A DNA stretch of 64,000 nt from NCBI RefSeq assembly GCF_964355755.1, contig NC_092675.1, positions 22,856,412 to 22,920,411 on the forward strand, in the 5' to 3' direction. The stretch is from Antedon mediterranea. Taxonomy: Eukaryota > Echinodermata > Crinoidea > Comatulida > Antedonidae. Of the stretch, positions 6,701 through 64,000 are shown piece by piece (the first letter of the stretch is position 1; the number at the start of each line of letters is the position of its first letter). Made by a program: the position numbers and the translations under genes. The notes beneath the pieces were generated by a model. The model made no database searches. It was not told where the DNA came from and saw only the letters and a program-made list of their open reading frames with translations.

Positions 6701-9700
6701 TTACATGGCTCCTTCTTTCATAGTTCTGGATAATTGTCTTTCTCTCATTCTGGCAACCGAGGAAACGAATGTGTCCTGGATGCTGTGGCAAACGACCAGG
6801 TATTGCTTTGTAGGTATCAAATTGTTATTAAAATTGGTTTGAACATTAAAATGCTCTTTTCATACAAGTTGAGTTTTGTCAAACCATGAAAACATGATTA
6901 GTGTGTCTTGTAGGCTAAGTAATTTTACTACTAATAAAAACAAGTTTCTTATATTTGTTGTTCACATACAATTCTTAATTAATTTTAATTCTTGTCTCAA
7001 TCTTATCATATTTGATACTATATTGTTTTGCTTTTTTAGCATTGATGCGTTTTATAACAATATATTTTTAATACTACTTTTCGTTTTTCTCTTTAGCCCA
7101 GTAAATTTAGTAGACGCGTATGATGATCGCCTTCCATTCGCGTGTGCGTTCGCTGTAACCTCTACTTGTATCTTAGACCTTTTCACTGGTTCATTCTACT
7201 ATCAACCCGATGTCAGTGATATTCCGTCAATGCTATCGGGTATGTATATTACATTAATACATTTGACGCCTAATGTCACTATAGTTCTTGTTGCTTCCCA
7301 CCATGAAACAAATCGTTGCCAAAAGACTGCGATTACGTTTCAGGCATCTTTAAATTAGATTAGTTAATAAAAACCAGTCACCTAAATAAGTAGGTAAATA
7401 AAATACACACATTCCCAATGCCCATACACATACATTATACCAATCAAACACAGAGATGTGTACGTACCTAAAGTTACATGGTAAAAAAAAAATCAAATTT
7501 AATTAAAAAACTCAATAATTATAAAATCATTAATTACATGGAAAACATAACGACTTATTTTAGTAGTTAATACTCAAATGGCAGCTTCACACCAATAAAA
7601 ACATAACGTAATCATTATAATGTGGAAGAGTTAATAAATGAAATGATTTACGACCATAACCCAAAGATTGAGTGGGTGAGTGGCCGAGCGGTTAAGACAG
7701 TGGAACCGCAATTACGTAGCCATAACATCGGCATGGGTTCGAGGCTCACTCACTCCATGGTTCTGGTGGTAGAACGAGTCTTCTCGGATAAGGACTATAA
7801 ACCGTAGGTCCAGTGTACACATCTAGCTCGTGTGCACTTTAAAGAACCTAGTACATCTTTCGAGACGAGTAGGGGGTTACCCCGGTGTATTAGTACATCA
7901 CAACCACTGATCACCAACTGGGCCCTCTGGGAGACCAGTCTTTGACTGAAGAGGTTAACTTACCCAGTATAAATATATATTTCAATTCAATTCAATTGAT
8001 CTACCTTCGAAGAGTGCATTATATACCGTACCGTTACTGTAATTTGTAATAACGTCACTTATTTCATGAATATGATGTTTTGACATCAGTTAGAATGTTA
8101 TAGAATTGATCCCAAGTGAATGCTTTGTATAAAGTTCAAACTGTCATTAAAAAAAATGATAATATTATTCAATTGGATTTGATTAATAATAATTCTAATT
8201 CTTTTGACTCATACTGTTTATCTTTTATGGAAAGATAGTACAATATAATTGATTTTTAGTGAGATTTTGTTTGTCTTTTGAGATTTTTTTGTTCATTGTT
8301 CATTAGATCATTCAGTCATCTTTATTACGATTACCTATCATTGTCCTTTCAATATGCATTATTATTTTTTACAAAAAAACCCTGTTTTTATTGCTTTTTT
8401 TGTTTTTCTTTGATTCTTTATGTTTGTTAAATGTCATTTTACATTAAAGACGTCCTCTTACACTTTATAAAAGACATTCATGCATAGATGAAAAATGTAC
8501 ATATAAAATATGCAATATATCATTAATACATTAAAAAAACTCTTATACCTGTAACTGTTATATTTTTATTTTCCCATACGTTTTTTTTCTTTTTATATAT
8601 TTCACATTATATAAATATAATAGATCAGGTATTAGGCTACGACCTCCAAGAGCAAATCTTTGTAGAACTAGAAAATCCTTCGTTGTAAATAGCATTCATA
8701 TTTTTAATTCTAATGTAAGACGATAATGCAATTTTTAAATAGTTTTACATTTTTAACAGTTTTTTTTTTATTTTTAACTTTTTATCTTGTATTTTAATCT
8801 GATATAATACTGCACGTTTTAAATTGTGGCAACATTTTTTATGTGTGTTTTTTTATTGTTGTTTTAATCTACCAAGCAAAGTGAATTTCCATTTTTATGG
8901 ACAAATAAAATTTCTTGAATCTTGAATCTTAAATATATATGATTTATTGGCTTTTTTTACTGTCCTCAAAAGCATGATAAATAAAGATGAATACAATCAA
9001 ACTTTGATTAGGTAATTTTTGTACTTTTAATCAAGCTATTCACTTTCGCTAAAAATAAACACCAAAAAGACAATATATCTTAAAACAATAAGAAAAAGAT
9101 ATGTTCTCAAGAGTAACCTAACAAGTTCACACTATGCAATCTACCTTATTTCATTTCATTCTGCAATCTATATATAGAAATTTATTCTATAAGTCTATCA
9201 TCTTGTGACAGTTTATTATCCGAACTAATTGATAGTTAGTCATTTCGCCCACATGATCACAGTAATTTATCAAAGGAAAAAAAAACTCTATGTAGCCGGC
9301 AATGTGCATTAAACACTTCAGATTAGGTAATTATCACATACGAAAAAAAGTGCAAGCCTTTAAGAAAAATAAAACATTAATTTTAATAGTTAAAGTCAAA
9401 TAAATTATCATTTCCAAACACTATAAACACTATTTGTTCGAACAATCACGTTTAGGCTTACCTGTATCATTAAAAAAGATTGGCTGGTGACAAATATATA
9501 AGCTAATACTTAATAACAAATACTGTAAATAGTACACACAAAGTGAAAGGTAATAAGAATTAACTATTTATGACAACACTTTAACTTAAATTTACTCAAT
9601 AATACAGATGTTAGAAATTAGAATATAATACTAGTATATCGAATAGAGGTTACATTTGAGCCCAAGTAAACAGCGGATACCCTGCTCCAACAGGATAACA

Positions 9701-29227: not shown

Positions 29228-32200
29228 ATGGCGTCGACGATGGTACAAACCACAAGTAAGATATATCTATCTATCTATCTATACTTATAACAACTACTAT
29301 ATGTATATCGAGGCTTGTACACAAGCTTTCTCATCAGTAAATTGTCACCCATCATATTCCTCCGCAGTCTGGCATATGCAGATGCAGAGCAGAGAAACTC
29401 TTTAATGTGATATTGCCCAGTTACTTGATTTATTTTACTTTTTTTTTAACTTTTTATTATACTTAATTTAGATTTAACGTAGGTAGGCTGTTTTAGAACG
29501 ATACATCAATGTAGTTATTATATGAAATCGTTGATATATACCGGTATAGATGTCATTAACATGTACAAATAACAATTACAATTATTCAAACTGTTGATGA
29601 ATTAAAAAAAAACAATCCACAACATAAACAATTAATTGTAGTCCAATATAAGGCCACCCTGACAGATAATTTAGATTTAACGTAGGTAGGCTACTTTAGA
29701 GAGGATACAACAACGGCTGGTTATGATATGACATTTTTGATATAATGATGTCATTAACATTTAGAAATAACGATTACAATTATTCAAGGTTTGGATGAAT
29801 TAGAAAAAAAACCACCATAACATAAACAATTAATTGTAGTTCAATATAAGGCCACCCTGACAGCCATCTGCATTGCAAAATGATAATATGTTATGTTTTA
29901 TCTAAATGTAGACACCGGTGGTGTTTTCTTTGAGTTATCAGCATCAATTCCAAATAATTTGACAGATGAAGAAAACCTTTGCTTAGAAGCCACTTACAGC
30001 TTCACCGATTGGTTGAAATGGAGTCAACTTGCTTCCGTAAGTGTCGTCAAATATGAATAATTACATAATGGGCTGGTTTCACATTTAATTGAATTAAGAA
30101 GAACATAGAAATGGTCAATACAATAACATCTGCACCAGTCAAGGAAATACTGTATAAATATTGCAGTTACTCGCGTTTAAAACAATATTAATAGCATTTT
30201 GACAAAGTACTGTTTCGCCTTTTCGTTAAATTCGATGGTTGAAATACATTTTTTTCGTTTGTAGATATGTATCATAGTATTATTTACCCTTCTTCAAAGA
30301 CGGAAGAGACTTTATTTGGAATGTAATTCTGGTATTCCAGGTGTCATATAGTAAGTAGATCAAAGTGGCGTCTCATTCAAACTTCCATAGTGAATATCTT
30401 CACAATCATGGGCAACATTAGTAGTAGGCTTAGCAAATCCTTTGAACTTGAATTTGAAACTAAAAATGATGTTTAAAAAAAGTGAATTAGGGGTACCAGC
30501 TCTTATTCCTGTAAGTTGAAATACCTTCAGTGCCCGGAATGGTCCTATACAGTCCTATACAGTAAAACCTAATCGATAAGTATATGTTGCTTCATCGATT
30601 TTTCTTATGAATACTGTGGTCGTGACGATGTTTTTTTATCTGTAGCTAATCGTATTATTCATTCTTGTTACAGCCCTGTAAATTTAGTGGACGCCTACAG
30701 TGACAGATTCACATTTGCAAGTGCTTTTTGTAGTTCGTTGAAATGTGTCCTAGATTTGTTTTCGGGTGTTAGTTATTTCGAAATAGATACTACACATGTA
30801 GCTGATATATGGAAAGGTAAATCAACAAATTAACATCACATTAATGTATATCTGTTATGTATGTGTGTTATCCATATATCTAACTAAAATAGAAATAAAG
30901 CATTTGATTAACAATCAATCATTTAAACACTTTTACAATTAGTAAAATGGGAAACGGAGATGTTACTATATGTTACATCATAATATAAATAATCATCAAC
31001 TCTTTTCTCCGAAATACACTATGAACAAACAATTAATTTTATTTTGTGAGGGGATTAACTCTAAATGTTCCCAAACCTTTTAAACTGATAACTATGTTTT
31101 ACAAATTATTTGTATATTCTAGGAACGGTGAATATTATCACGATAGCATTTAACGTTCTTCTCATCAGTGTAGCTTTCTACCCAATATTTATATGTCTTT
31201 CAACGCAATACAGACTCATAGGGAACGCTATTGGACTCATGTACACTACATACTGGTAAATACACATGCTTAAATTACTTTTACTAGATGGCACGCTCGC
31301 TTCGCTCGCGTACCATCTAGGTCGTGCCCACAGATGGTTCTCGAATACACAGTATTTTCCAGCGAGAAAAAAATGGAGATTTCAAATGTACGTACTGCAG
31401 GACTATAATACATTGTCGTTTACAGAAACGAATAAATATACACGATGATTTATGTAGTCAGCTAAAATTAGCACCCTGGGAATTACTTCCGAGAGAGAAA
31501 CAAAATGAGTCAAATTTTTTTATTTGGACTCATTTAAACAAACCCAATTTGTGTTTTGTATGTAACATTAAGGGTTGAGGGATGGGGGAAGAAGAAAGGT
31601 ACAAAGAGGAAACATTTTAAAATATATTCTTATCCACTCAGTAACGAAATATTGTTTTTAATGTTTTATAGGCCTATAAATAATATACCACTAAATACAG
31701 TAAAACATTTACGATTTAATACTTTGTTAAAACTCTCACTGTCATAGTCGATTGAAATAGTAAAGTACATGTAACGATACACCACTACGTACGTTTATAT
31801 ATTTTTAAATTATTAATTAATACAAACGTTGAGAAGCAACTGTCAGTAATAACGTTTATTTATTTGTATATTATATGTTTATAATCTAACAGTAGGGCCT
31901 ACCCACACTCACAGTAATAAAGTTTATTTGTATATTTGTTTATATTATATCTAACAGTACCAACACTCACAGTAAGAAATTTGCGATTCAAATTGCGATC
32001 AAAAGTGCATTACAATACTATTTATGTTTATTCTCCAAGGGGGCCCATAAATCTAAATCTATACCTCTATGGTTAAACCAAATAATTTGGAATGTTCCAT
32101 TCATCACAAATCAATACATTTGTAAAAACGTATATTACATTTTTTAAAGAAAATCGGCCTGTCTTCAACATTATGATGCTGTACTCGAACTGTTCAACCG

Positions 32201-42279: not shown

Positions 42280-45200
42280 ATGGTGTTCGTGGTGTTTGTT
42301 TTTCTTTTATTTGTGAACAATGTTGTTTCTGTTCCAATACAAGGACGGTAAGTTATTATTGTGTTAATTTATGACTAAAAGCTTTTTTTTAAACCAGCCA
42401 TTGGCATTCACAGGTTTCTAAAACGTATGGCAATACAATCGTCATCATTTTTTATTAGTACGATTGCCATGTATTTAAGAACAATTGGTTTTGGCTAACG
42501 AAAATATAAATTTTCCCAATTTAATGCTAAAGGATATAAACCAATTATGATAATATTAAAACAAAGTCAGAATCTTCTTATAATGATAAATTGAACAATT
42601 CACTAAAAATGTTTCCTCTATCATAGTTAATTTGACACATTTCCCAGCCTTATTTTGTTAAATTCATATTCTGTGATGTTCTTAATTTGTTTACCTTATT
42701 AATTTAATTGGTCAATTAATACGCTACCTTAAGACTCTTGGTACCTATAAAATATTTCATACTGTGTAAATATATTTCATTACTTGAAAATGAACAAATA
42801 AAGCTCGAAATATTGTTTTATATTCTCACATATCAAACTTATTAATGAATCTTCTGATAAATATATGTAGGTACATAATGTAACAATACGAGCATCGTAT
42901 GGTCATTGCATTATATTTTATATTATACAATCCGACATTGATTTACTAAATACTGTAATATGATTTAATTATTTATTGTATGACTGTTTTAGAGGAGTTT
43001 TTTTTTGGGAGGAATTAGTTTACAAAAAATGTTGTCTTATACAGTACTGTTAATGTCACAGTAATAAATTTACACAGGCCTATACAAAATATATATTATC
43101 TATGCATGAACTTATAATAATTAGAGTAAAACAATGTATACGTATTTCTAAAAATGTTGATATATAAACTACAGTCCGATTTACAGTATTTACACAATGT
43201 TCGATATCATGTTACCGATGTGTAAGACCGGAATAAGCTCAGCGTTCACACGTTTATTCATTCATTCATTTATTCAATCTTTCCGAATCTCAGGTTCATG
43301 AAAGTAAAAATTACATATACATGAAATAAAATAAACAAGACTAATTACTACTAGTCACTCAGGATGCCATTCCACCTGGAGAGCATCTTCGACTTAACTA
43401 AGACGTTGCTTATAATCATTGAGACTAATACAATAATACAATTTAATAATTTAATACAAACAGAACTTCTTATAATAGAAGCTGTGTATTTTTCAATCTT
43501 TCTATACTTATACAATAGGTCAATTTACTACTATTCTTCCACTGATACATTTAGATGATTTGGGTAATTAGAATTATACTATTAATAATAAACTTTATAA
43601 ACGTTTTAGTGAAAATGTTTGCAGTAGGCAAGTATCTGTTTTACATTCACGTCAAGTATCCTACTCCGTCTCTTATCAAACCAAAGGTTACACGAAGTGC
43701 GGAGGATTTGGTTGGAACCGCTGTGCAACATATAGGTAAATTTTAATTCAAGGCATTTATTTTATTTAGAGACTTTAATTGAAAATTTAAATTTGAGGTC
43801 TATACTATAGGCAAAGAAAGTGAGGCTATCTTCTCTGGTTCCAACCATGTTGTTGTTTTGTGTGTAAAATGGATATGTTATTCTTGAACTCTTCTATTTC
43901 AAAATACCTTAGTCAACATTGAAATTGTTGTTTTATCATTACTGCTGGTACTAAATGCAATGTTTTCTTTAGTCGGCGATACAGCCGGGCATACCGTGTC
44001 CAGTATTACAGCGTGTACTCAATTAACTACTTTTGCTGTAGCGGTTGGGGTGAGGATGACTTAGGAGGATGTACACACCGTAAGTTTATGTATAAATTAT
44101 GTATTTAAATAAAAGTTGAAAACTACCACAAAATGTTCAAGTGACTGATCATTTGAGTTGCTGGCTAAGTTGTGAGGTGTTTTCTAATTCGTTATAATAT
44201 ATTATCATTATAAAGTTTTTTTCAAAAGTTCTCGCTTTTGTATGTCCTTTTTAACAATATATTATTATAGTTTATGATGAATACATTTTAATTGTATTGT
44301 ATTGTATTAATCAACCAACGAAAATCATGTACGAAAAATTCAACCCAGAGACCAACCAACATTATCGAGGTATATATGGAGATCTTTGATTAGTAAAAAT
44401 TGACGTAGTCGAGACACTGTAAACTTAATTTATTGTTATCGTAAAACAAAAAGCTTTGCCGAAATCACGCTAGATGTCAATTTCGTCTTTTAATTCGTCG
44501 GAGACTGACCGCGTCGTCAGCACGAAAGGTGCCTAATTTACATCACCAAGATTGTTGAAAATCTATTGTAAAGTGAATCTTTGTTTAAAAAAACATACAA
44601 ATTAACGGTATTTTTTTGTTTATGGATGGGTAGCATTGTGTCCACCTAATGATTGCGGCGTTGGTGGAACATGCATTGATCCTGACACGTGTGAATGCGA
44701 AAACGGATTTGAAGGCTCACAATGTCGTGGTAAGTTAATTATTCAATCGAAACCAATTCCATTTGTGTCGATTTGTTACTACATAATTATATATAAATCC
44801 AAGGGCAAATTACTGAAAAAATGACAATGATGTGGGTATCAGTTTCTGGATCTCAATGGAGATACAAAACAAAAGCGAAAAGCTAAATCAAAACGAGAAG
44901 TAAAAAAGCCAGAAAAGTTAGCAGAGCTTTCAGGCAACACTAGCCCTTCATCAGTGCAAGGGAGATCTTTGATTACTAAAAATCGACGTAGTCGAGACAC
45001 TGTAAACTTCTAAATTTATTGTTATTGGAAACACACATAATACATAATTATATATATATATATATAGATATGTATATTCGAACTGGCGTTGCGCTAAACC
45101 TAACCCGTCTTTGCGTTGCTATTGGGAACCAAGCGTAAGATATTTTCCTAGTGTAGGCTGACACAATTGTTATACAATTTTGTGATATTCTATATATTTT

Positions 45201-48200
45201 AGATATCGATGAATGTGCGGTTAACAAGGGTGGGTGCCAACATCTTTGTATTAACACCGATGGAGGTTACTATTGCAAATGTTACACAGGATATGTATTA
45301 TTGACAAATGGAAAGGACTGTGAAGGTAGTAACATAAATCACTCCTAACTATAGTTGAATGGAAATCTTGAATTTATTCTAAACTACCATAATATATACT
45401 ATTTATTTTAAACTTGGCTGCCAACAGTTTATTTGTAACAGTAAATGAATTAAACACACAATGTATTGTACGAAAACCTAATCCTGCCACATGAATATAA
45501 ATATACCTATGTAGAAAAAAAGTTGTCTCTTAAGCTTTCCTAAACCAGGCAAAACAATAGAATATGATACCGATTACACTTTAAATAATAATAATACTAA
45601 ATATACATTATGTAGGCGCAATCCAAATTACACATTTAATTAAAAAATTGAAGTAAAAAATAATACGGCTTTTGAAATATTCTATAGTTACTTGTACCCC
45701 GCCATGTGTAAACGGGGAGTGCACAGCTCCAGATAACTGTGAGTGTGAAGAATTTTATGCAGGCGATGCATGTGACGATGGTAAGTGACATTGAATAAAT
45801 AATAAATTGATTTGCCACTGGTTATACAATTTTTCTATAATAGACTAATTGTTGTTTAGAACACTCAGATTTTATAATAATATATTATTAATATTGTAAA
45901 TGATTTAAAAGTTGAATTGTCTATTAGTGGATGAATGTTGGAAAAACGTTGATGGATGTGCTCACATATGTACTAACAACTATGGCGGATTTGAATGCAA
46001 ATGCTTTCCTGGGTATGAACTTTCAAGGCTTACTGAATGTTTGCGTAAGTTGCTACTTCTAGAAAATCTTGTACCAACATTTTCATATTTCACATTAAGC
46101 AGAAATATAACAAGAGTTTGCATGGAGCAATCTATGCTTACTAACCCATTAGAAACAAATTGTACCCTCTATAATTAATTCAAGCATTCTGAGGAATTGA
46201 GTACAAGTATTTCAAGAATCACGTATTCTAATTGTATGGCTATATAGCCTAAGTAACTATAATTTGGGTTATATTAAAAATTATTTTTACAGCTGTTTGT
46301 GATCCTTCTTGCGAGAATAACGGCCAGTGTACGGGACCCAACAACTGTGTCTGCCCGGATGGATACGAAGGAGAGAGATGTGAAATTGGTATATATTATT
46401 ACACAATATATTTTTTTTTATCTTATGTGGGTTCATCCCACTTTTATTTCCATACAACTGTTCTCTTTACATATATTTTTCACTATACACTATACATATC
46501 ATTATATTTACAATGTTTGTTTAATCATCTGTTTACATATACTTATTTAAAGAGTTTTATTCATTTGTTTACATATTATCACATTGATTACATAGCTTCC
46601 TCCTTTTATACATATTATCTGTAACACATTTTCATTAAAATTAAGATTTTATAATGTAGTCATTACCAGACTATTGTATTGAAAACCGTTGAAAATCTCG
46701 AATTAATTACCACAATATTATTGTTTCAATATATTGCATTTCATTATATATATTTATTATTTATATTTATTTATATGTTTATGATAGATATTGATGAATG
46801 CGAACTCAACAATGGCGACTGCGAACATTTTTGTGAAAACCTTCCTGGAACATTTAGATGCTATTGTTCAGAAGGATATTCTGGCACCACTAACTGCACA
46901 GGTATGCAGACGCATTACCTACTTTACCTGTAAATATTCAATACACATTAGAAACATCTGTTAAATTTACTTTTTATACAAGAACTATGTCTTGTGTTGC
47001 TCATACTGACATTTTCTTTTGTATTTGATTCCATTGTTTATATTAAGCATAGTTTGTGTTTACAGCAATATTTCAAGAAATTGTTTTGATGTTGATCGGG
47101 ACGTTTATGATGGTTTTAAGTTTGTGTTGTGTTTAGAAAGTATTCGATTATTATCATCTTTTTTAAATGTTGTGTTTTGTACTTTTTAAATTGATGTGAT
47201 AGATTCGTTGAAATGTATTTTGATATTATAAAATAAATAGGAATTATTACTACTACTTACTAGAAGTAGATATGTAATAGAACAGCAAGAATGAGTTATC
47301 TTACTCTCAAATGGGGTGAGTGCCTTGATTCTAACTTCTAATCATTTCAACAGATATTGATGAGTGTTCCTTCGCCAATTGCCATAGATGTACAAATTCA
47401 CATGGTAGTTTTGAGTGTTTTTGCCACACAGGATACGAAGCCTACGATCTATACAACTGTGAAGGTACACATATTATGTTGATTTTGTTAAATTTCTATT
47501 AATTTTAGTTTCGTTTTTATGTTTATTTCTTTGTGTGTTTTGTAATACTTTGTCAGACTCGCTTACTTTTATTTTCAATTTACATCGCAAACACTCATAA
47601 TTTACATTGTGGTTATATCATACATTTCATTAAATAATATATTTTTTAAACAGAAACAACTTGCTTCTTTTTTATTTGTGACTTTTTTATGAATCTCTTC
47701 AATCTACTGTTATTGTTTCATCAGATGTTAACGAATGTACCAGTGGTATTGACGAATGTGGACAACTATGTTTAAACTCTATCGGTAGCTTCAGATGCGA
47801 TTGTATTGACGGTTGGACAATTAATAAAGATCAGAAAAACTGCACAGGTAGGCTATAGAATAAATAAGCATGATGATGTAGTTCTTTTTTGTGTCGTTTC
47901 GTTTATGTATTTGCTATTCAATACAATAAAAAAACAATACATAAAGAGATGTAACGTACTGATGCAAAATACTTCGCTGTAACTTAAAGTAATACATTGA
48001 TACTACGTTTATGTAAATACAGTGTCTTCGTCTTACATTATGTAGGCATATTATCAATTCGCATGAAATATTTTAACAGAAAGTATAATTATTATGTGAT
48101 TCTGAAAAAAAAAATAACCACACTTTAATTTCTATTTTCAAAAAAAGTATACAATTAATATAAATAAAATATAATTTCAATCATTATGTATTTTCAGCCA

Positions 48201-51200
48201 ATCCTTGTGTTGAAGTCGGTCTACCGTTTAATGGAAATCGAACATGTACAGGATTTACAACAGGCGAAATATGTCTTTTTTCATGTGAATGGAACTACCG
48301 TTTATTAGGATCCAATCTGAGAGAATGCTTACCGAATGCTATGTGGAGTGGTCATACAACACTCTGTGAAGGTTTGTTTAAACTGATTTTTAAAGCATAG
48401 TCTAGCCTAGACTATCAAACTAGTTTGACAAAAAGGTGTGAAGTACTCAACTTTGGTAGTCATATCATCATATTGATATAAGGCACATCACATTTTTTTG
48501 TCACATAAAGTTTTATAGTGTAGACAGATCTTTAATCGTTAGTAGTAGTTGGTAAACTATAATAATTTAGGCCTAATGAATTCATGCTGCACTCCTGAAT
48601 TGAACATATTTTCTAGACTTGCTTTAAGTTTCTCGTTATTGTTTTCTTAGCATTCCTTTACGATTTTCTGCCGTAACTACATGTAGATTCCAGCTTAAGT
48701 ATACATATGACACGCTATTTGTGCCAAAAGACAAAACATTCAAATCTTGTCTACAATATTAAGCCGAATCGCCGTCTACAAACTATATTATTATAAAATT
48801 GTTATATTTATGTAACATTTCGTTATGCAATAAATAAAGCACTCAATGGTGCTTCATTGCAGCATTCGACTTATACTAAGTTTCTGTATGTGTTAATCAT
48901 AGTACCGTGTTTTCCAATATAAAACCCGTATGTATGGCCCTTGCATAAATAATAAACAAAGATTCTTTCTCTTGTGAAAATACAATAACATAGTATTACC
49001 GTATTACCTTTACAGAGATGCTATGTCCTAACATTCCTTCACCTAACAATGGATACATCCTTTTTCCATGCGAGAATCAAATTGGAAGTCAATGTAGTTT
49101 TGGTTGTGACCCAGGATATTTCCTAGAAGAAAGTATTGTTACAGAATGTCTATGGCCTGGAACATGGAATAGCACTTTTCCAAAATGTATTGGTAAGATA
49201 CGGTAGTAACCTGTTCATATGTTAAAGATACCTGGTAATACTATATAAGCTAATTTCGTGTCACAGTAGTTCCAATGCTATTGTCAGATGTTTGTAAACA
49301 TTTTTTAGAATGTTGTGCAGCTGGTTGGGAACAAACTTGTAGCGTGCGGCGTCTACTGTTCAATATAATACAAAGAATATAATGACAACATCCACTATCA
49401 TGGGTTACCATACCAACCATTACACATCTTGCTTCTCTTGATCAAATGTATAGTCTGATGAAATACTAAATGTCTTTACATTTAGAAATGCAGGTGTGTA
49501 CGCCATCTCCATGTGCAAATGGTGTTTGTCGAGTATCGCAAAATGAGGTAGGTGGATTTCAATGCGACTGTTCCGGGACTGGTTATACAGGGAAGACCTG
49601 TGCAGAAGGAGTTGTAACAACACCAGATTGGCCTGACGTTTGGGTAGGAGATGTGTATGATTTCGAATTCATTGCCAAACCAAAGCAAGCACTTGATTTA
49701 ACTATTGAAGTAGATTCAGATAACGTGTTTGTTGAGCCCTATGAGTTATCATTTTCGTTAACAACAAATAATATTACATGTTCTATTCATGGGGTTAGTC
49801 AGGGGTTTGTAAAAATATCATATGTCTTGAGAGGAAATGAAGCAGCTGATTTCGTCACACCAGACGATGACGAAATATTCGTGTTACAGAACAACTCGTT
49901 GAACACTGTTGATGAGAAATTTACACCGGGCTATCGTCTGCCCTCGGGTTGTTTTGTACTTTCTGATCACTCCACCTGTAAAGGAATAGATTATTCATCT
50001 ACCGAGAAATGGACGAAGGTAAATAACGTTTATATGGAAACTAATGGCGTTGTATCATTGGCAACTGAGACATTCGAACTGCCTCTTTGTCTTGACGGAC
50101 AGGAATTTTCAATCGGTAAGACACCGTTGTCTCAAAATAATAACTGTCAACGTAAAAATGTAACATTGGCTAATATTCAAAGCTTTGTTAAGTTTAACTC
50201 TTTGTATCGTAATTATACGCGTCAGCTTGAAAATATTCTGCCAGACTGGATGACTTTCTTATCCATCGATATAGATCCAATGAATGCTATATCATCTTTG
50301 TCAACATTGAGTCTTAGCGGTACTGATGTTAAATCAATCGACTGGTGTTCAGCTGCTCCCGTTGTAAGTGATAGCCAGTATTCTGTCTTCTTACTCTCTA
50401 AGGCAGAGTTAACTATTGGTGGCAGACGTGTATCTCTGTCAGTACCAGCATTCAAAAGAAAATATTGTTTAGTAGTGGGTGTATGTGATATGACATCTGG
50501 AACTGTGATGATGGTGTTTCCCGAAGGTTCAAGAAATATCTTAAGTTTCATCAAGAACGTATATTATAATGATGTCCTTGCAGTGGATGTCAATGTTCTT
50601 GCATTTTCAAAAACGGATATGCTCAATCCAGAGAAGAGTAATACAACAGAACATCAGTCTTCTCTGTCAAATCTGAGTGAAAAACACAACACTAACATTT
50701 TGGCAAGTCTACAATACTCCTACTACATCAACAACACAGTGTTGGCAAAAGTCGAAGGCAGTGGAGATATCCATGTATCCCTTGAAAATATTACACAGGT
50801 GTGTTTTGTTTTAATTTATTATTTTTATTGAGGAGAGAGGTAATGTATTAAATAAATACAAATCGTTACCTTTATTTGTATTTGTATATATTTGTGTTTT
50901 TACAGTTATTCAGTCATCTTTTTATACAACGTTGGGAGTTTAAACAGTTTGGAGATTCCCAAATTACCTTATTCTGGAGAATGCTTGGTGAAGACGTAGA
51001 ACTAAATTTCATTTCAATTCAAGGGAGTAGACCGATATTGAGCTCAATCATTGGTGGTTAGTTTATTTTTAAATTAAATAATTAATACAACGTAACAATA
51101 TGAGAAAATGTAATGATTCACCAAAACCATATAACAATAATAATATAAAAATAATGACATAACCTCCTATGTTATAGAAGTAAATCTGATTTATTTTGTA

Positions 51201-54200
51201 GGAAGATCCTTTTCATCTGATCAAGGAATAATATTGGAATCATCGACGTCATTTGGGGTTTTTGACGACACGCCGTTTTCATGGTTGCTTAAGACCGACC
51301 AAGCTGATGTTGGCCTAGAAGTGTTTGTAGATTATGATTTGTCACCGAAACTTGAAATTCCAAGAGATCTTAACACCATGACGAAGATTATAAGTGATCT
51401 ACAAACCCTACCGCCTAAACTAAGTGCATTGGCTTGGCAGTTACTTTTTTGTGGATATGTTGATTTATATTCTGATCTACTAGCTGCAGCCACAGATTTG
51501 AATGTCAGTATAATGAAGTATTTCCCCACTTTAACTCAAACAGATTTGAAAGTAATTGCTAACGCTTTAGCAGAAATACGCATGCAGTGTAAAAGGAGTC
51601 TATTAACTCTGTGGAATGTTAACGATGAACTGATTAGCAACACGAATCAAAGTGATTTGCGAAGTGATGATGTATTAAATGTTACAAGACATTTGGAAAG
51701 TCTCAGCAATAACATTCTTATTGAAGCACAGAATATTTTCGCTTATGAAAGTACGTCTGGATCTGGTTTTCGCATGATTTCAGAAGTTTGTTTGTCATCA
51801 CATCTCTGCTTTCCATCGTTAAAGATAGAAGTATTGAATTCTGTGAATAATTCTCTTCCATACAGAGATCTTCAATCAATTTTTCAACCAAAACCTTATG
51901 TTTGCATAACAGGAGAATACTCCAATGCGATAATCCTCAATAAATTCATCAGTATCCAGACTGGATCACGATTAAATTTAGCTTTTGAATCTAACAACAA
52001 CTATTGGCAAGGAAGTATTCCAGTGTTTATCGCATTTCTTGGAATTGAACAAAAGACAACTATGCATCTTACAATGACAGGAACCTGTTTCAGTTTTTCT
52101 GGTAAGCTTTGGGGTCTATATGATATGGTTGGAAATGCTAGTTCTGAATTGAGCTCGTTCGAGTCGATGGTAATATCTCTATATGGCAACATTGCTGCTG
52201 AAGGGCCATTATCATTAGGAAAAATTCTAAAATATAAAGTTATTACGTTTTCCCAGAAATCTGCTGACGATAGCGAACAAAGACTGAGCCAAGCTACGCA
52301 TTCTGTTGAATTAGCAACAACACAATTACAGGATGCTTTAGATGACGAAGCTATACAAAATACTAACGTAGTTGAAGCTAGAAAAAAACATGATCATGCA
52401 GTAGAAGAGGTTATGGAAGCCAACATCGCAGTTGAAAGTGCACGACAATCATTGGAAAATGCACGCGAAGATACAAAAGAGGTTGAAGAAAGCTTGAACA
52501 GTGTGTGTACAATTACTGAATGCACTGGGGTATGTTTACCTGGCAGTAGAATTGTTACTTACTTGGAAGACGTTTATGCATACGTGCCATATGAATGTTG
52601 TAGTAACAGAGACATATCAACAGTTGTTTCTGAGACAACTAGTTGCTGCTGGAGTTGCTGGATCCCAACTGAGGTTAAGGGCGGTTTTAAATTGCCAAAG
52701 CTTGTTAGGGGTGTTGCAAAAATAGCAACTGGTAGATACGTTAAAGGGACAATACAAGTAGTAAATTCTGTAGGTAAAGACAGTGAAACATCGTGGACAC
52801 TAGGCGAATGTTGTGAAGAGTGTCAAAAACCTGTTTTAATAACAGTCACGTTTGAGTCATGTAGCACATGTGTCAGTTATGAAGTCGTTGGCCAGATAAA
52901 AAAGATTAAAACCGAAGAAGTTTCTTGCAGTGTACAGATCCCGGATGCTGAATGTGTAAACAACAACGAGCAATGTCGAAAACAGCGAACTCAATTATTT
53001 GATATAATACAAAACGTATCTCCTGACCTCACTGTACCAATTGAAGAGTTTGATGATGCTGTTTTACTTGCATCAATTGCAGATGCAGAATTGAACGAAG
53101 CTATAATCGAACTAGATGATGCATTAAACCAACAAAAGGTAGTATCAGACAAGGTATTGGCGTTACAGAAACATCTTAACAATACTCAAGAGGCGCTGGA
53201 CCAAATACGCATACAGGTTTCAGCAGGGCTAAATGTAAAGCAGCACCAAATCAATGGATCACTTGAAGGAAGTTTATACTTCAAAGACCTGACATTTAAC
53301 ATTGATCTAGTTACAGAAGATATTTCCGTGCTTCCTATAGTATGCTACATAACGCTATCATCCACTCCAGTATATATACAAATATTTCTTGACGTCACCA
53401 ATTTAAATTATACAATTGAAAATGCTGCTCTTTTCATTACGGAAGAGTTGTTTGGTGATATAACAAGATCAATTAGAAGAAGAAGAGACACAAGAAACAT
53501 TGGCCTTCACATAGAACGCGACGCTACTACCATCATTGAACAGCCACCTATTCAAACAGTAGATTATGTTCCGACAAACGACTCACTAGATACCAATATT
53601 ACTAGTAACCTTTTACGAGATCAAAAAGTTGTCCAAAATGAAAAGAAGTGCACAGACTATAACAATATACTAGATTTTATCGAAAATTCATTCCAAACAC
53701 TTCTGGAGATTGTAAATAACAGCAAATCTGGCAATACAGAGGCATTAGAAAATGAAGAGAGATTTCAAAATGACTACTTGTACAATCTATCAGCATCATC
53801 GTCACCACATGTTGTAAACAGTAGTGTATTTTCATATTTGAATTTGACTATGGATGATTTCGAAGACAGCAACTATACAGAACAAGACGATGGATATGAG
53901 CAAATTGCTTTAACAAATGTCATCGATTCTGCGAGGATAAAATCAAACAACACAAGATCACTACTTGAGATTGATGTATTTTTTGAGTGGGAAACGGTAA
54001 TGAACACATACATCTGTAATTGCAGTTGTATGACGGATTGCCAAGGTTTCTACGATTGTCTTACAACTGAATTGAATTCTTTAAAGTATTTGTCAGAAGG
54101 TAGAGACATTTATGAAGATGTTGTTGTCCTCGATGAATATATATCCATATTTGTTAGAAGTAATGCAACAAGTGCTGATGAAGCAGAGACAAGTGCGATA

Positions 54201-57200
54201 ATTGTACTTGACCAGGTTAGTTTTCTGAAAGATTATAATGATGTATGCTTAGAAGAACCTGTCATTACAGAACATCCTGAACCAATATTAATAACAACTG
54301 AAGGAGCTGCTTTTACTCTGACATGCAAAGCTTCTGGGAATCCCTTTCCAACATTTGCCTGGACGTTTAATGGAAACGTGCTGAGTGGCATGACTTCAAA
54401 CACATTGACACTAAAGCAGGTGAACGCATCTGATTCAGGTACTTATACATGTCAGGCTATCAATGCAGTAACAACAGTTTCGTCATTGCAATGTAACGTC
54501 ACTGTTGAATTTGCACCGTGGATCAGAGAACATCCGCAAGACGCTGATACTGAATATGGTAATAGTGTAGGATCGTATTTCGATTGCAAAGCGTCAGCTC
54601 AGCCACTAGAAAACTACCAATGGTATTTTCAGAACAAGTTGTCATCCGACATGGAACCCCTCCCAGGTCAGAATGTTTCGAGTATTCAGATATTAAGCCC
54701 GGGATTTAACCAAGATGGATGGTATATTTGTGAAGCATGGAACAAACATGGGCGCGTATTATCGAATCCTGCAAGATTTCAAGTTCTTGGGATATCGATG
54801 CCTGAGTTTTCAAGCACTATAACCATCGGACTTTATCAAGGAACCAATTCCAAAACACCTAATGCATCTTTGGAAGAAACCATTGCGAATGTTATTAGTA
54901 ACGATGACCCAGAAATAGAACTTCTCAATTACCAAGAGTCCAGTCCACACGGCAAAACGTTTATAACTCAGATAACATTCGAAATAAAAAGTACTGATGT
55001 CACATCCATTGATATTCTGACTGAAAGTCGATATGACTCAGCACAAACGGTCAAATATAAGATTGACAATATCACTGACAAGGTTGTTCAGCTTCAACAT
55101 TTACTGAGTCCAGCAGACCTATTTGAACATCATGGTGAAGTAGTGGAAGTAACAACGTTTATTTCAGATTTGAAAGGCCCAATCTGTCCCAACAATCAAT
55201 ACGCTCATATTGATGGATATATTTGTGGTGAGTTGTTTAGATTACTGTGATTAATGTTCATGATTGATTTTGTGTTCATTTTTCACATTTAACATTTTAA
55301 ACAACATTTGTTTTTTATTTTGGTATCAATAGGCCTAATTATTCGCTTTTTAAATCTCTATTTTGAAAAACAAGTACAATAAATAATATGCTTACTTTGT
55401 TGATTTTAGTAAACTGTCCACCTGGATCATATCGTGGGAATAATAACTTGCCTGCGATCTGTCAACTATGTCCAATAGGATTTTACCAGCCCCAAGAAGG
55501 ACAAACGACTTGTCTGAAATGTGATGGTAACACTAAAACTGATGTTGGATCAAGAACCTGCGGTACATTATAGTTGTTATGTTGTTAAAGTTAGCATTGT
55601 ATGATGAGTTGTTATATAATAGCCTATTGTTTCCTTGCGTGCCTGATTTTATAAGATAAATTACCCTATGTTTCTAAAGTTTTTAAATAATTGTATGTAT
55701 GTATACCGTACAGTATTAGTTTTACATGTTTACAGTGCATGTTATTCACTAAGATACTTACTTTGTCACACATTATTCATTTGTCACACATTTATCAGTA
55801 GACTGTGCTCCCGGATCGTATCGTGGAAATGATGGAATTTGTGAGCAATGTCCAAAAGGGACTTACCAACCTGAACAAGGAAAAAAGGAGTGTCTGCAAT
55901 GTGATGGTTATACCGATGTTGATGTTGGAGCAAAAACATGCAGTGAACTAAAAAGTACGCAATAAACCATAGTTTTAATATTATTCACGGTTTAAGCGAT
56001 GCGAAAGGAAAAATAAATTATCATTTAGACCATGGAGGTATATACCTCCATGTTTAGACCTTACAAAGTTTTGGGAAGCCGTATAAACAAACAAGCCTCG
56101 CCGACGGGAACGGGGGACGACGGTGGGCATGTCTCTTCCTAACATAACCATTGTTGGAAAAACATTCCTTGTCAGGAATACATTCAGACCGAAAATTGTA
56201 CCAATGTCACGTGTCACACATCCTGAATAGCATGAATGTAAACATATATTTAATACTAAACTATAGACTATAGACTATTGCCATAAAGATAAACAATATT
56301 TTGATGTATATTCTGTTAATTTTTGCTAGTGCCTTCGAGTACGTCTAAGACGTCACCACTAAACACACCACTACCAAAAGAGAAGTCAACGGCAAAGGTA
56401 AATACAATTATTTTCAAACCATCTTGGTTGGTTTCAGTAAGCAAATTCAATTTTGCTGGTTAATATTCCTGTTTTTTCTCTCATAACAGTGATACCGTCA
56501 AACGGTACAAAAATACAAAAGGGTCATTTTGGAGAGAAAATAATCAGTCCACCGAAAACTCATAATTTGTTGTGTATACATTGAAACACTATTCATTCAT
56601 TAACATTTAAACTGGTTTCTTTCTTTCATTGAAATTTTGTTTTGGTCATAAAGGAGGGCAACAATGTGGCCTACATCGTCGGAGGTGTTTGCGGAGGATG
56701 TGTTGTTGTCATCGTGGTATTCGTATTCATCATCAGAAGAAAAGTGACGTATAAAAGTAAGTGGTTTTTACCTAGCCTGACAGACATTTTATTTTTCGAC
56801 ACAAAATTAGGTAGTATACTATAAATTACGGTTTGACGGCCTGGAGATAGTGGAGATGTTGCGATTGTACACTAAATTGAACTATAAAGTGCAAGTCATT
56901 AATATTTTCTTAAGATTTCAGTGTTACTGTTAAAGATATATTGTCACCATCGCAACAATATAATTGTTTAGAATAGGCCATAATATCACATTATAGTTAT
57001 TCAATTGGAAAATAAAATTATTTACTTGAAAATACTGCAATCTAAAGCAACAAACAGTCAAATTGTCTGTCAGACAAATATTTTTATTTAAGCTAACGTT
57101 TTACTATTATCAGAGTTTTTATTTCAATTGGTTTGTTAAAAAGACATTTCAAAATTCGATTTCTACTACACACCATATAAGAGCAATATTCAATCATAAT

Positions 57201-57864
57201 TATAGGAATAACACCAAAGAACTTATAACACAAGAATCTCCTGTTCTTCAATTTGCATTCAAAACACAGTATCGGAAGTACAGGGTTAAAAGGTCAAACT
57301 GGGCGACGCCATTTCACAGCATGGAGCAGCGCCCCCTCCAAACTATGAAGTCAATTACTCTACCCCTCTAGAGAGTATTAGCAGATCCCCTCTATGATTT
57401 TGACTTTCTAATTTGATGCGGGCGCCCTACTCCTCAGTCAATTACTCTATCCCCCTCCCCCCCTAGAGCATTAGTAGATCCCCTCTATGATTTTGACTTT
57501 CTAATTTGATGCGGGCGCCCTACTCCATGGCTCACAATGGCGCCACCCATAGCTCTATTCTATCCCACAATGCCTTTCGAAATTGTTACGCGCTTCGGAC
57601 GAACAGGAGATTCTTGTGTTATAAGTTCTTTGATAACACGGGATACGATGAAAGTAACTCACTGAAAGTATAGTCATTCTTCATAATGTTTGATACTCAT
57701 TTGTTTCTATAGTTATGAAGACGACCGAAAATACTGACATAGATGAGACTGGGGATTATTTTGAAATCAAGTGGGAAGAAGAAGAGGAAGCTGTGGAAAC
57801 TCCACAAGGCTTTACGAATATTCAACCGTCAAATGAAAACATATATTCAACATCTGAATTTTAA
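42280..57864 (+). CDS. Large mosaic type I membrane receptor (EMI-EGF-sushi-Ig-ephrin-receptor-like), 21 exons, 2,543 aa
   Basis: Not recognised as a named protein. Exons: 42280-42347, 43625-43735, 43973-44079, 44634-44729, 45203-45325, 45688-45780, 45928-46044, 46293-46388, 46788-46901, 47354-47464, 47725-47847, 48198-48371, 49016-49192, 49486-50798, 50906-51056, 51202-55227, 55410-55562, 55799-55954, 56330-56397, 56654-56756, 57713-57864. The sum is 7,632 nt, in frame to TAA. Domain order with approximate residues: signal peptide 1-18; EMI-like 45-95; EGF 96-386 (eight copies); sushi 387-503 (two); EGF 506-545; unrecognised 546-2007; Ig 2008-2187 (two); linker to 2333; ephrin-receptor-like Cys modules 2334-2436 (two); stalk; membrane helix about 2466-2486; tail of about 57 residues. 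The architecture predicts a secreted-pathway, cell-surface adhesion or recognition molecule, which is inference. Many N-x-S/T sites are present. Confidence 0.88.
42348..43624. other. Intron 1 of the mosaic receptor
   Basis: AT-rich. A TTCATTCATT-type simple repeat at 43256-43280 is followed by a possible reversed LINE tail. Nothing coding recognised. Confidence 0.4.
43625..44079 (+). CDS. EMI-like domain of the mosaic receptor (exons 2-3)
   Basis: Two exons spliced phase 2 to phase 2 encode a cysteine pattern typical of an EMI domain: [14 protein letters not shown], then a basic stretch, then NYFCCSGWG and a final Cys. EMI domains sit at the N-terminus of extracellular multimeric proteins, directly after the signal peptide, and usually precede EGF repeats, as here. 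The domain is short and was assigned by eye. Confidence 0.7.
44634..47847 (+). CDS. Array of eight EGF domains, one per exon (exons 4-11)
   Basis: Each exon is phase 1-1 and encodes one six-cysteine EGF domain. Exons 4, 6 and 8 are short EGFs (for example [16 protein letters not shown]). Exons 5, 7, 9, 10 and 11 are calcium-binding EGFs with the D-I/V-D/N-E-C opening (DIDEC, VDEC, DIDEC, DIDEC, DVNEC) and the aromatic-rich middle (GGYYCKC, GSFECFC). Types therefore alternate short/calcium three times, followed by two further calcium-type copies. Confidence 0.9.
45082..45139. mobile_element. MITE family 2, right-end fragment
   Basis: GGCGTTGCGC, then CGTCTTTGCGTTGCTATTGG and GAACCAAGCG match the right arm of MITE family 2. 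No left arm is visible. Intron 4 of the mosaic receptor, about 60 bases before exon 5. Confidence 0.5.
48198..49192 (+). CDS. Two sushi (CCP) domains (exons 12-13)
   Basis: Each exon is one phase 1-1 module with the sushi layout: a first Cys, NG and G-x-x-C-x-F-x-C in the middle, and a W two to five residues before the last Cys ([20 protein letters not shown]). Both carry six cysteines rather than the usual four, as in selectin-type sushi domains. They follow the EGF array and precede a ninth EGF at the start of exon 14. Confidence 0.85.
48391..48534. mobile_element. MITE family 1, copy 4
   Basis: A diverged left end (ACTATCAAACTAGTTTGAC), then GGTAGTCATATCATCATATT, and right end TAGTGTAGACAGATCTTTAA. 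Lies in intron 12 of the mosaic receptor, just after the first sushi exon. Confidence 0.7.
49486..50798 (+). CDS. 1,313-nt exon 14: EGF domain plus unrecognised ectodomain
   Basis: The acceptor ATTTAG is followed by an EGF ([14 protein letters not shown], then [15 protein letters not shown]). The rest, from [18 protein letters not shown] onward, is about 395 residues of soluble beta-rich-looking sequence with many N-x-S/T sites that I cannot assign. The donor CACAG|gtgtgt is phase 0, unlike the phase 1 modules before it. This exon is over ten times longer than the surrounding EGF exons. Confidence 0.8.
50906..51056 (+). CDS. Exon 15 of the mosaic receptor, unrecognised ectodomain
   Basis: Phase 0 to phase 1 exon of 151 nt after the acceptor TTTTTACAG, reading [18 protein letters not shown] and continuing to a GTTAGT donor. 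It links the two long exons. No domain is recognised. It is included because the phase and the open frame are required for the full-length model. Confidence 0.75.
51202..55227 (+). CDS. 4,026-nt exon 16: novel ectodomain with coiled coils, Cys cluster, RRRR site and two Ig domains
   Basis: A single open exon of 1,341 full codons. In order: about 350 unrecognised residues; a heptad-like helix at 52255-52500 ([20 protein letters not shown] onward); a region of Cys pairs at 52501-52990 ([24 protein letters not shown]); a second heptad stretch at 53055-53230; a basic RSIRRRRD site near 53470, fitting furin cleavage; a Cys-containing segment near 54000 ([12 protein letters not shown]); two I-set Ig domains at 54254-54790 ([16 protein letters not shown] and FDCKASA..W..DGWYIC); and a linker with [14 protein letters not shown]. 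Every other domain exon of this gene except exon 14 is under 200 nt. The reading frame is intact throughout. Confidence 0.88.
55410..55954 (+). CDS. Two ephrin-receptor-like (GCC2/GCC3-type) cysteine modules (exons 17-18)
   Basis: Two phase 1-1 exons read [30 protein letters not shown] and [30 protein letters not shown]. This is the repeated pattern C-P-G-x-Y, C-x-x-C-P-x-G-x-Y-Q, G-x-x-x-C-x-x-C. The two exons are clearly duplicates of each other. Such modules occur just outside the membrane in ephrin receptors and in SVEP1-like proteins. Confidence 0.85.
56330..57864 (+). CDS. Stalk, transmembrane helix and cytoplasmic tail of the mosaic receptor (exons 19-21)
   Basis: Exon 19 encodes a Ser/Thr/Pro-rich stalk. 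Exon 20 encodes [20 protein letters not shown] followed by FIIRRKV, a single membrane helix with a basic stop-transfer. Exon 21 encodes an acidic tail with a run of five Glu after KW, a YFEI motif (fits Y-x-x-hydrophobic endocytic signals) and a C-terminal YSTSEF. This sets the topology as type I. No kinase or other catalytic domain is present. Confidence 0.85.
56930..57080. mobile_element. MITE family 3, partial copy
   Basis: TTAAAGATATATTGTCACC and the inner stretch TTACTTGAAAATACTGCAAT, CTAAAGCAACAAACAGTCAA match the 24.4-kb element (TTACCTGAAAAAACTGTAAT, CTAAAGTCACAAATTGTCAA). The right terminus is missing. Intron 20 of the mosaic receptor. Confidence 0.6.
57215..57632. mobile_element. 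Inverted-repeat element with perfect 32-bp ends (MITE family 4)
   Basis: The left end 57215-57246 and right end 57601-57632 are exact reverse complements (CAAAGAACTTATAACACAAG and so on). The interior carries a tandem duplication, 57350-57434 and 57437-57526, around CCCCTCTATGATTTTGACTT. It is GC-richer than its surroundings. It lies in intron 20 of the mosaic receptor, 80 bases before the last exon. Perfect ends suggest recent insertion. Confidence 0.8.
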
Positions 57865-59806: not shown

Positions 59807-62800
59807 ATGGCAGACCAGCATGAAAGATCGGGGTTTTCTTCTGCAAAATGGTTTACATTCTGCTTATGCTTGGCATACTTGAGCCATGCTTTCAATATCG
59901 GGAGTTTATTCAGCATCATAACGACAATAGAATTCCGGTTCCAGCTCAAGACATCACAGGTAGGTTCTTACTCCAGTCAAATCAACATCTGTAGGCATAT
60001 ATGCCTGTCCGGTGCGTTTTTTTAGGTATATATTATAGTATGGTCATTATTCATTTCATATTTTATTCGGATTGACTGGACTGTATTTTTTACTTTTTTT
60101 CATTTACCTTTTGATTTATATAAAATATATAAATCAATCAATCAATCATACTGGGCCTATGATTATATTTTGTATTGCATTTAGTTGGGCCTACTATTAT
60201 TATTCATAAAACTAAGACAGAATGTTTGATTTTTATGACTCATGATTACAATAATTGCAAACTCCTCTAATTTTTTTAGGCCTACTGTATCTTAAAACGG
60301 TTATGTAACACATCTCCAATAGCAATATGCGTAAGATGGTGACAAATGCACATTCTGGAATTATGTACGAAATAGTAAAATAAGAACAACTGATGTGTTT
60401 GATTTCATGAATTTAGAAAAAAACAACTGTATGCCTACGTGGGATTATAACGAATGATTAATGTTTAAACCGTAAACGCATTTTGCGTCAGGCTCGTAAA
60501 GCGAGGATTCTCCTCGTGGCAAACATGTTACTAATAGCACATAGGCCTACAATGCGTTGGTAAATATATCAGCATTACCAAAGAGTTCTAATAGTTCACC
60601 TCAAAAGACTTACTAATGTTCACAGTATGATTAACATAGCATACATCAGTAGGCCTACACATTAGTACAAAAAGACATGACTGTCTCTACTGAAACGTCT
60701 ACTAATGAGCGTAGTATTTTAACCGTATGATATGGCATCATGTGTTATTTACATCAATATGCATCGATCTGAGACAAAAATTGTTCATCAACTAAGTTTG
60801 GAGAAAACTCGAATACTGCTCTATCACATAGCCCAGTCAGAAAAAGTTCAGACCTTTTGTTCTTTGGTCTAATAATGTATAGAGACTCTTTACCTTGCAA
60901 ACGTTATTTGTTACTGATTACTTTCAATGATAGTAAAGTCTTTAAATGGCTTCCTTTGATAATTGTTAAAAGTTCTTGTAGACTTTTTCAGCAAGCGTTC
61001 GTATTAGACTGTAATTTTTACTATTTCTGACGAAATGTAAATAATTACCATGCTCACAATATGTTATCAGTTAATAAAGAGTTGTGAGTTATTTTAAAGA
61101 AAACCTTAATAGCAAAATGAAATGGAACAACCGAATCGCTCCAGAATGCAATATATTTGATCCGAGCGCAATCTGCATTCTCTTTCACAATCAGCCTGTA
61201 GCATTTCCAGAAAAAACAGATCTTGCAACATGTCGTTTTCATTCATTTTAATTCCTCTTCACAGTGCCACATAATACCCTTTATTTACCATCTACCATAC
61301 CATGCGATTTATCATGCGATACACATCAGTTTATATAATAGAAATTTGAGACATCAGCAATTGTTAGGATAGCAGAACAAATAATAAAGCTATTTTCTTA
61401 TTCTATTATTGTCCATTTTTCAGGTTTGGTTTTCGGTTACTTGAAACCTACTTCTTGTCGCTATCCTGTGCAGTATCTTTTAGCTCCACTAAACATAATT
61501 TTATAACACATAACCCACTTTGTTTTTTGTTTTGTATTTTATATATGCTTTTTGCATTTCTAAATAAGTAATGAAGGATGTGTGTGTAGGCCTATGTATA
61601 TATTGAATTTATTCATATTTGTATAAAACTCATTAACAGACCATATAATCTCATTAATATTTTATTTCAGGGAAAATAAATAGTAGGCCTATGCACTATC
61701 AAATGAAATTGTTTTTTTGGTATTTCTAAAAAGGTTTTTGATACCACTAACACCTAGAGATATTATTTACGTTTACCAATAGATTAACAAAATAGGCATT
61801 AATAGTTTTACAATATTCACAGGTGGGAATAATAGCTGGCATGTACCAAGCAGGTATTCTGGTAGTATCCGTATTTGTAACATATTTTGGCGGGAAGTCA
61901 AGCAGTCACAAGCCTAGATTGGTGTTTGTCGGGTTGATTATTGCAGCGATAGGAAGCTTCATTACGGTACTATCACACTTTATTGTAGACGAATATGACT
62001 ACAGAGTAAGGGAGGATTCGAACGTATCAACCTGCATTGTGGAACCACTTGCTCTTGATGATGGTTGTACTACAATTGACTCTAACGAACAAGCAGACAA
62101 TAGACTGGCCTACGCATTGGCAATCATTGGTCAGTTTTTTGTTGGAGTCGGTTGGACATTTGTAGCGACACTGGGGTTGGTTTACATTGATGATAATGTT
62201 TCAGAGACAAAATCAGCATTTTACTCTGGTAATGTACCGTGTTATTTTGTGGCTATAAATCAGCATACTATACCCTTGAAATATTAATAACAGAAAGTTA
62301 TCCTTTAGATTTATCACCGTTAAAGCATGGAGGAAATATATCCTTCATGGTAAAAGTATCTATAGAAATCAATATGTTGCTGTAATTTGTTTAATTGTTT
62401 TAATAAGCTTATTTTCTTACTATTATTTTTTGTTCAGGAATTGCAAATAGTATGTATGGACCTGGAACAATTATAGCTTTCCTTGTCGGCGGATTTTTTC
62501 TTATACTCTGGGTAGACGTCGACAGTGTTGATACCTCGACGATTACTATCGATGATACTGATCCACGCTGGGTAGGAGCATGGTGGATAGGTCTTCTAAT
62601 CGGTTCTTTTATGTTCATTGCCTCGTCAATTCCCTTTTTATGTTTCCCAAAGAAGTTACCGATATCTTCGTCTGAACAACATAAAGACAGTAGTAACGTT
62701 CAAAACACAGAGATGACACTAGCCGGTGAAGTTGTGGCTATGAAAGAAAAGGGAAAATGTAAGTTTGTTCCAAATTGACTGAAGATGTATCCATCATCGT

Positions 62801-64000
62801 ATGCTTACATGTGTTATAAACTAACATGTATCGTCTAGGCCTAATTTGAATTCTACTTCAAGAACTTCATGCTGTATCTATCTACTCCTGCTGACATGAT
62901 CATCTTTGCACTACAACTCATGCCCTGCTATTACTTCTACTCATTTGTTTCAGCATTGGGCAAGTCAATATTGGCTGTATGTTCGACACCACCTTTCATA
63001 TTTGTTGCCCTAGCAAATGTTACTATATCTGCACTGACTGCGGCAATTGGTAGCTTTACACCAAAGTTTTTTGAAACCCAATTTGGACTTACTGCAGCCG
63101 ATGCCAGTATTCTGACGGGTTAGTAACGTCGTTTATTAAATAACTACACAAAACCCATGTTTTCCACCGCATCATTATAGAGCATCGCTTTTAAGACAAA
63201 TTCTGTTTTTTGTTTGTATAATACTACAACCAAGCCTAACTATTCTACGAACAACAACTTTTTAGTATTGCTCTCGTTTTGTTTATGGAATGTATAATCA
63301 AACGTGTATATAATTAGTCCTACATTATAAGTTATATAACAAAACAAATTTGATTTCTTAATTAAGGCTTGATACCGTTGCCAGCATATGGTATAGGAAT
63401 AGTCATTGGTGGTTATCTGGTGAAGCGATTCGAATTAAAAGCCCAAGGCATCGCATTGCTGTCTCTCTTGTTAAGTATATGCGCCACGGCATTCGCTTTA
63501 ATAACTATGTTCCTCGGCTGCAGCCCGAATAAACTTATTGGTGTGACTCACGACCTACAACTTAATGAGTAAGTTTTTGTTGTTTATTATGTATTTTAAG
63601 GACTAGATTATTTTCTACATGGTTAAGATAAAGACCATAAACATGGTTAAATCAGGGAGTTGTTATTTTACAACTCCCTGGTTAAATCATAAGCGATACA
63701 CCCTATTTAAACTAAGGAATAGTATAAACTGTTTTCCTGGATCAGCGAGTTTATTGGGATTATTACGAACGGAAATAATATGTCATAATTTAACCAATAC
63801 TAAATTAAGCAGTGATTCTCTCAGTAGACCATAATTATGTAAACTCTTCTTTTTTCAGATTAGATGGAGTTTCATTAACTTGGGAATGTAATGCTAACTG
63901 TAGTTGTACTGAAAACCAATACAAGCCTATCTGCTTAGAAGAACGAAATTATTTTTCTCCCTGTCACGCGGGATGTATTAACGAATACTCGAATATGGTA
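59807..64000 (+). CDS. SLCO4-like: Organic anion transporter, SLCO4-like (OATP family), 3' end outside window
   Basis: Twelve-helix plasma-membrane carrier of the OATP family, which exchanges amphipathic organic anions such as steroid conjugates and thyroid hormones. Exons: 59807-59959, 61823-62228, 62438-62758, 62954-63118, 63367-63568, 63859 to beyond 64000, all in phase. Seen: TTIEFRFQLKTSQ after the first helix; FVTYFGGKSSSHKPR, matching the SLCO4 loop; the family signature DPRWVGAWWIGLL (exon 3); FFETQFGLTAADASILTG (exon 4); and a cysteine-rich Kazal-like stretch starting WECNANCSCTENQYKPIC (exon 6), the large extracellular loop 5 of OATPs. The start ATG follows TTTAGA and gives a short cytosolic N-terminus typical of the family. 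The rest of the loop and the last helices lie beyond the window. Assignment to SLCO4 rather than another subfamily is from remembered motifs and is less certain than OATP membership. Confidence 0.92.
59960..61822. other. Intron 1 of the SLCO-like gene
   Basis: AT-rich with five AGGCCT sites (60279, 60543, 60653, 61588, 61686) and no supportable exon, RNA gene or transposon. Confidence 0.45.

Follow-up and report, generated by a model that had tools for sequence, protein, structure and literature searches.

Gene structure and genomic setting

The window, a 64,000-nucleotide stretch of genomic DNA from the crinoid Antedon mediterranea, carries on its forward strand a large receptor gene at 42280-57864, which we rebuilt exon by exon by hand. 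The gene comprises 21 exons with AG/GT at all internal exon edges, and its reading phases agree from end to end, exons 4-14 all entering in phase 1. Its coding sequence of 7,647 nt including the stop specifies 2,548 residues without internal stops. A first-pass annotation had arrived at exactly this start and stop and at the same number of exons. It had also described a single reading frame of 7,632 nt and 2,543 residues: the single frame stands, while the length is replaced by ours, and the 15-nt gap between the two thus reflects splice choice only.

On the reverse strand at 1272-3096, a reverse-transcriptase ORF (RVT_1, 72 bits) is accompanied by another ORF in an overlapping frame, the two representing a decayed retrotransposon. 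Downstream of the receptor gene, at 61796-63120 on the forward strand, lie exons belonging to an organic anion transporter gene (OATP/SLCO, Pfam PF03137). Two forward-strand ORFs at 6873-7355 and 30573-30830 share a PVNLVDAY-type stretch and have no Pfam match; they have the appearance of exons from a gene that was duplicated and is perhaps STRA6-like. Elsewhere in the genome, a compact Hox cluster at C2:7827797-8206132 contains twelve homeodomain genes, of which a single one is inverted relative to the other eleven. From homeodomain reading rather than a tree, we take these to be Hox1-8, Hox9/10 and three genes of Hox11/13 type; a posterior set with Hox9/10 and three Hox11/13-type genes indicates Ambulacraria. 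The contig sizes point to about eleven chromosomes and some small pieces, in keeping with a crinoid. A single 3,044-residue open frame at C8:12532856-12535357 includes four homeodomains, as in ZFHX-type genes.

Domain order of the receptor

The protein is a mosaic of well-known modules around a large centre. Exon 1 (42280-42347) encodes a hydrophobic start, [17 protein letters not shown], recognised as a signal peptide from hydropathy and the exon model. It is followed in exons 2-3 (43610-44079) by an EMI domain at residues about 25-98 (Pfam PF07546, 35.1 bits, cut-off 25), and the lengths of these two exons are identical in paralogues. Each of exons 4-11 (44634-47847) is of class 1-1 and encodes a single EGF module; of these eight modules, three are non-calcium and four calcium-binding (IDEC/VNEC), that of exon 7 being of the DECW type. 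Both Pfam (EGF_CA with 91.9 bits over 5 stretches, plus further EGF models) and an exon scan identify this array, and the scan finds exactly eight class 1-1 EGF exons ahead of the sushi pair, the number originally proposed. The two sushi modules occupy exon 12 (48198-48371, 27.2 bits) and exon 13 (49016-49192, six cysteines, 38.4 bits; Pfam Sushi cut-off 20.7). A ninth EGF at 49494-49607, likewise anticipated, opens exon 14 (49486-50798); in the window copy it is matched only weakly (E 0.004), and one paralogue reaches E 5.6e-5. The rest of this exon forms a beta-rich region without known family (residues 550-946).

Exon 15 (50906-51056) adds 50 residues that are kept in paralogues. The 4,026-nt exon 16 (51202-55227) encodes the helical and beta regions, the coiled coils and the 16-Cys segment of the centre, a basic site, a linker, two Ig domains and a post-Ig region. 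The Ig pair spans residues 2016-2194 (54258-54794) and is matched by Pfam Ig_3 (92.9 bits over 2 stretches) and I-set, two models that recur in all eight family members scanned. Two ephrin-receptor-like modules follow in exons 17-18 (55410-55954; PF07699, 63.4 bits in 2 stretches), and a Ser/Thr/Lys-rich stalk in exon 19 (56330-56397), to which similar exons exist in two of the tandem copies described below, C10c (by tblastx) and C10a (by reading). The membrane helix [23 protein letters not shown] was read from exon 20 (56654-56756), and according to the exon model exon 21 (57713-57864, stop included) encodes an acidic tail ending in [10 protein letters not shown]. The last intron contains two 62-nt direct repeats, 97% alike, at window 57372-57526.

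Pfam thus bears out the layout given in the first-pass annotation for the EMI, EGF, sushi, Ig and ephrin-receptor-like modules. Its signal peptide, single membrane helix and short tail agree with ours as well, these being read from the sequence and not from Pfam.

A conserved centre

What lies between the EGF/sushi array and the Ig domains? Residues 550-2015 gave no convincing Pfam match in any member when seven to eight paralogues were scanned, in line with the earlier estimate of about 1,460 unrecognised residues, and a profile search of the centre against the PDB returned matches, of any strength, to the Ig and EGF parts only. Scans of prokaryote and viral contigs found no relatives. In a search of the 354-Mb genome, the module encoded by exon 14 was restricted to ten family loci and two decayed fragments.

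The middle had previously been regarded as merely unrecognised. It does lack a known family, yet its approximately 1,470 residues are conserved between copies and follow a recognisable plan. From the sequence and weak models, the order reads as beta-rich, helical, beta, coiled coil, 16-Cys, coiled coil, short beta and basic cluster. Within exon 16, a first predicted coiled coil (52260-52505) comes after the helical and beta regions, followed by a segment of 160 residues with 16 cysteines (52506-52985) and a second predicted coiled coil (53034-53228). Single-sequence structure models of two central pieces reached a mean pLDDT of only 33 and 36, too low to support a fold search.

The basic cluster contains a convertase-like RRRR site at residues 1755-1758 (53475-53486). 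Its motif, R-x-[KR]-R, is kept in eight of the nine non-frameshifted copies (window, C10a-c, C5a, C5c, C1 and C9) and is absent from C10d, and the neighbourhood around it is variable. In C5a the first basic cluster is GRRR, and the full motif stands about ten residues further on. This pattern suggests cleavage into two chains by a furin-type protease.

A family of ten loci

Searching the animal's own genome (354 Mb, 18 contigs) with exons 14 and 16 uncovers ten loci of the receptor gene on five chromosomes. The gene in the window (C6) is thus one of ten paralogues with a common layout, a point that had escaped the first-pass annotation. Three copies lie in tandem on C10 near 4.10-4.15 Mb (C10a-c) and another on the same chromosome near 24.25 Mb (C10d). 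C5 has three copies near 20.71-20.79 Mb (C5a-c; C5a near 20.77 Mb), and single loci are found on C1 near 24.08 Mb and on C9 near 22.13 Mb. Two decayed, near-identical exon-14 fragments about 1 kb apart on C4 near 14.23 Mb (L043:1029-2187) suggest a tandem repeat containing a gene relic.

Aligned exon by exon, the loci share exon order and phases, and the exon lengths are mostly equal. The central region is 52-90% identical among copies, one frameshifted copy being left out. In a tree of exon 16 the window copy groups with the C10 tandem copies and two C5 copies group with each other (100/100 each). EGF number varies from 6 to 13, with six in C10c, eight in the window copy, C1 and C10d, and thirteen in C9. 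In the C9 copy, six additional calcium-binding EGF exons, mostly near-copies, sit between the two sushi exons (C9:22117101-22127100) and apparently arose by in-place exon duplication. Apart from the window copy, a second ephrin-receptor-like exon was found only in the tandem C10 copies. The glycine-rich membrane helix was also found in C10a-c, C1 and C10d, the C9 sequence being ambiguous on this point.

Some members may have lost parts or activity. The upstream exons of C5a lie beyond a large intron, and the first exons (EMI) of the C5 copies were not found within the surrounding DNA examined; a search of about 3.4-3.9 kb downstream of these copies likewise revealed neither the membrane exon nor the second ephrin-receptor-like module. 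Secretion or decay of some members is therefore possible. C5b carries a frameshift, and its joined frame is interrupted by many stops. In C10d a single in-frame stop lies in exon 16, so this copy may also be inactive, although the remainder is well preserved. For C10c one stop stands at a match edge and none inside the exon model.

Across eight copies and about 1,800 codons, dN/dS lies between 0.23 and 0.36 in every pair. Windows among the young tandem copies reach at most 0.76, in the Cys-rich region, and none exceeds 1. Positive selection across the gene finds no support in these values, which overall are well below 1.

These comparisons also bear on the gene model itself. It was built from genomic sequence, and small exons flank very large ones, features that could be expected if two neighbouring genes had been fused by the model. 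We regard such a fusion as extremely improbable: the N-terminal exons and the central and Ig exons are collinear on several chromosomes with matching phases, and no second start was recognised within the receptor span. The purifying dN/dS together with the shared exon lengths and phases therefore marks the span as one real gene, not two joined, which upholds the original one-gene claim. Nor can the model have arisen by chance, for its exons reappear elsewhere in unchanged order, many with exactly the same length, and with dN/dS of about 0.3.

Possible function and alternative explanations

Our preferred reading, of middling confidence, is that each of the ten loci encodes a large type I surface receptor with a single membrane span, for which adhesion or scavenging/phagocytic recognition would be the most likely role. 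Extracellular ligands would be bound by the EMI/EGF/sushi N-terminus together with the unnamed central modules. A furin-type protease may cut behind the basic cluster. The large outer chain would then stay attached, through disulfides or non-covalent contacts, to a membrane chain that comprises the two Ig domains and the ephrin-receptor-like modules, one or two in number. Oligomers could form through the coiled coils and the 16-Cys segment, and upon ligand clustering the tail tyrosines might dock signalling adaptors. Coelomic or epithelial cells would be the probable site, with specificity spread over the paralogues. Cleavage, oligomerisation and signalling are here readings of motifs. For signalling, the tail tyrosines provide a suggestion: the window copy has YFEI and the terminal stretch given above, C10a ends in NENVYTTSEI, and for C10d one downstream frame contains VYLNP, VYAEP and, at the C-terminus, VYSEI.

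The main rival, which we judge rather unlikely, is a membrane-tethered structural adhesion or matrix protein in the style of fibrillin or polydom, without a recognition role. Many matrix proteins contain calcium-binding EGF, sushi and ephrin-receptor-like modules, purifying selection is in keeping with this, and a multimer would fit the coiled coils and the cysteine-rich segment. Against this, ten dispersed paralogues, a varying EGF number and tail tyrosines kept in a paralogue are generally more receptor-like. In the parts of a review of echinoderm matrix proteins covered here, EMI is mentioned only with collagen XXVI and a keyword search yields no sushi or Ig-like match (PMC10381214). The multigene family with its tandem clusters, the combination of Ig, sushi and EGF and the variation in domain number might also bring to mind a diversifying immune or allorecognition receptor family. 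This is improbable, as dN/dS stays well below 1 overall, even the highest tandem-copy window reaching 0.76, and the nearest parallel, Botryllus fuhc, is a much smaller protein that has three Ig domains (PMC3691228). The purifying dN/dS lends no support to a hypervariable recognition molecule.

Adhesion or recognition by a surface receptor is compatible with a further possibility, to which we give an even chance: that the gene belongs to a widespread unnamed invertebrate family whose central module exists in other phyla. The beta-rich region and the pattern of coiled coil, Cys-rich segment and coiled coil seem to resemble uncharacterised mollusc, cnidarian and amphioxus proteins, a likeness that serves as a lead only. 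It makes it less probable that the module is new to the lineage. The first-pass annotation had proposed a lineage-specific recognition or adhesion molecule at the cell surface: the single-pass surface protein is borne out, recognition or adhesion is a plausible role, and the family may or may not be confined to one lineage. A long shot is the boldest version, an undescribed class of oligomeric receptors that a convertase would cut into two chains, whose centre would adopt a new fold, and whose paralogues would form a recognition repertoire expanded within ambulacrarians. The ten conserved copies of this receptor gene share a large region to which neither Pfam nor PDB has a counterpart, and they belong to a branch that matters for the study of immunity and adhesion in deuterostomes. 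Targets for further work are the fold of the centre, the putative cleavage site and the places where the copies are expressed.

Comparison with known systems

In SVEP1 (polydom), a long sushi array is accompanied by VWA and pentraxin domains. With SVEP1 the receptor shares sushi, EGF and ephrin-receptor-like (GCC2/GCC3) modules. It differs in its EMI, Ig and membrane parts and in their order, has only two sushi modules, and shows no Pfam match to VWA or pentraxin in its N-terminal, central and C-terminal parts, so that the distinction from SVEP1 drawn in the first-pass annotation holds. MEGF6-type proteins have EMI plus a mixed EGF array, as does the receptor, which in contrast adds sushi, centre, Ig, ephrin-receptor-like and membrane parts. 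A partial literature search found no named protein with this domain order.

Botryllus fuhc-tm likewise is an Ig-bearing invertebrate surface protein with a tail that lacks known signalling domains. It has 531 residues and three Ig domains, and no EMI, sushi or central region is described for it (PMC3691228). As a relative fuhc was rejected, since layout and size differ.

The engulfment receptors CED-1/Draper/MEGF10 are single-pass proteins in which EMI is followed at once by EGF, and for CED-1 a single YxxL is reported in addition to NPxY (PMC8092387). The tail of the window copy has one YxxI (YFEI), without NPxY and without a second YxxL/I or paired ITAM. Unlike in these proteins, the receptor's EGF modules are mostly EGF_CA, not pure NIM repeats, and a sushi pair, the centre, an Ig pair and ephrin-receptor-like modules are added. 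The missing NPxY and paired ITAM and the many extra parts are the reasons why we do not place the receptor in this family. What it has in common with CED-1/Draper/MEGF10 is an N-terminal EMI domain leading into an EGF array, one membrane helix and a cytosolic tail with tyrosines.
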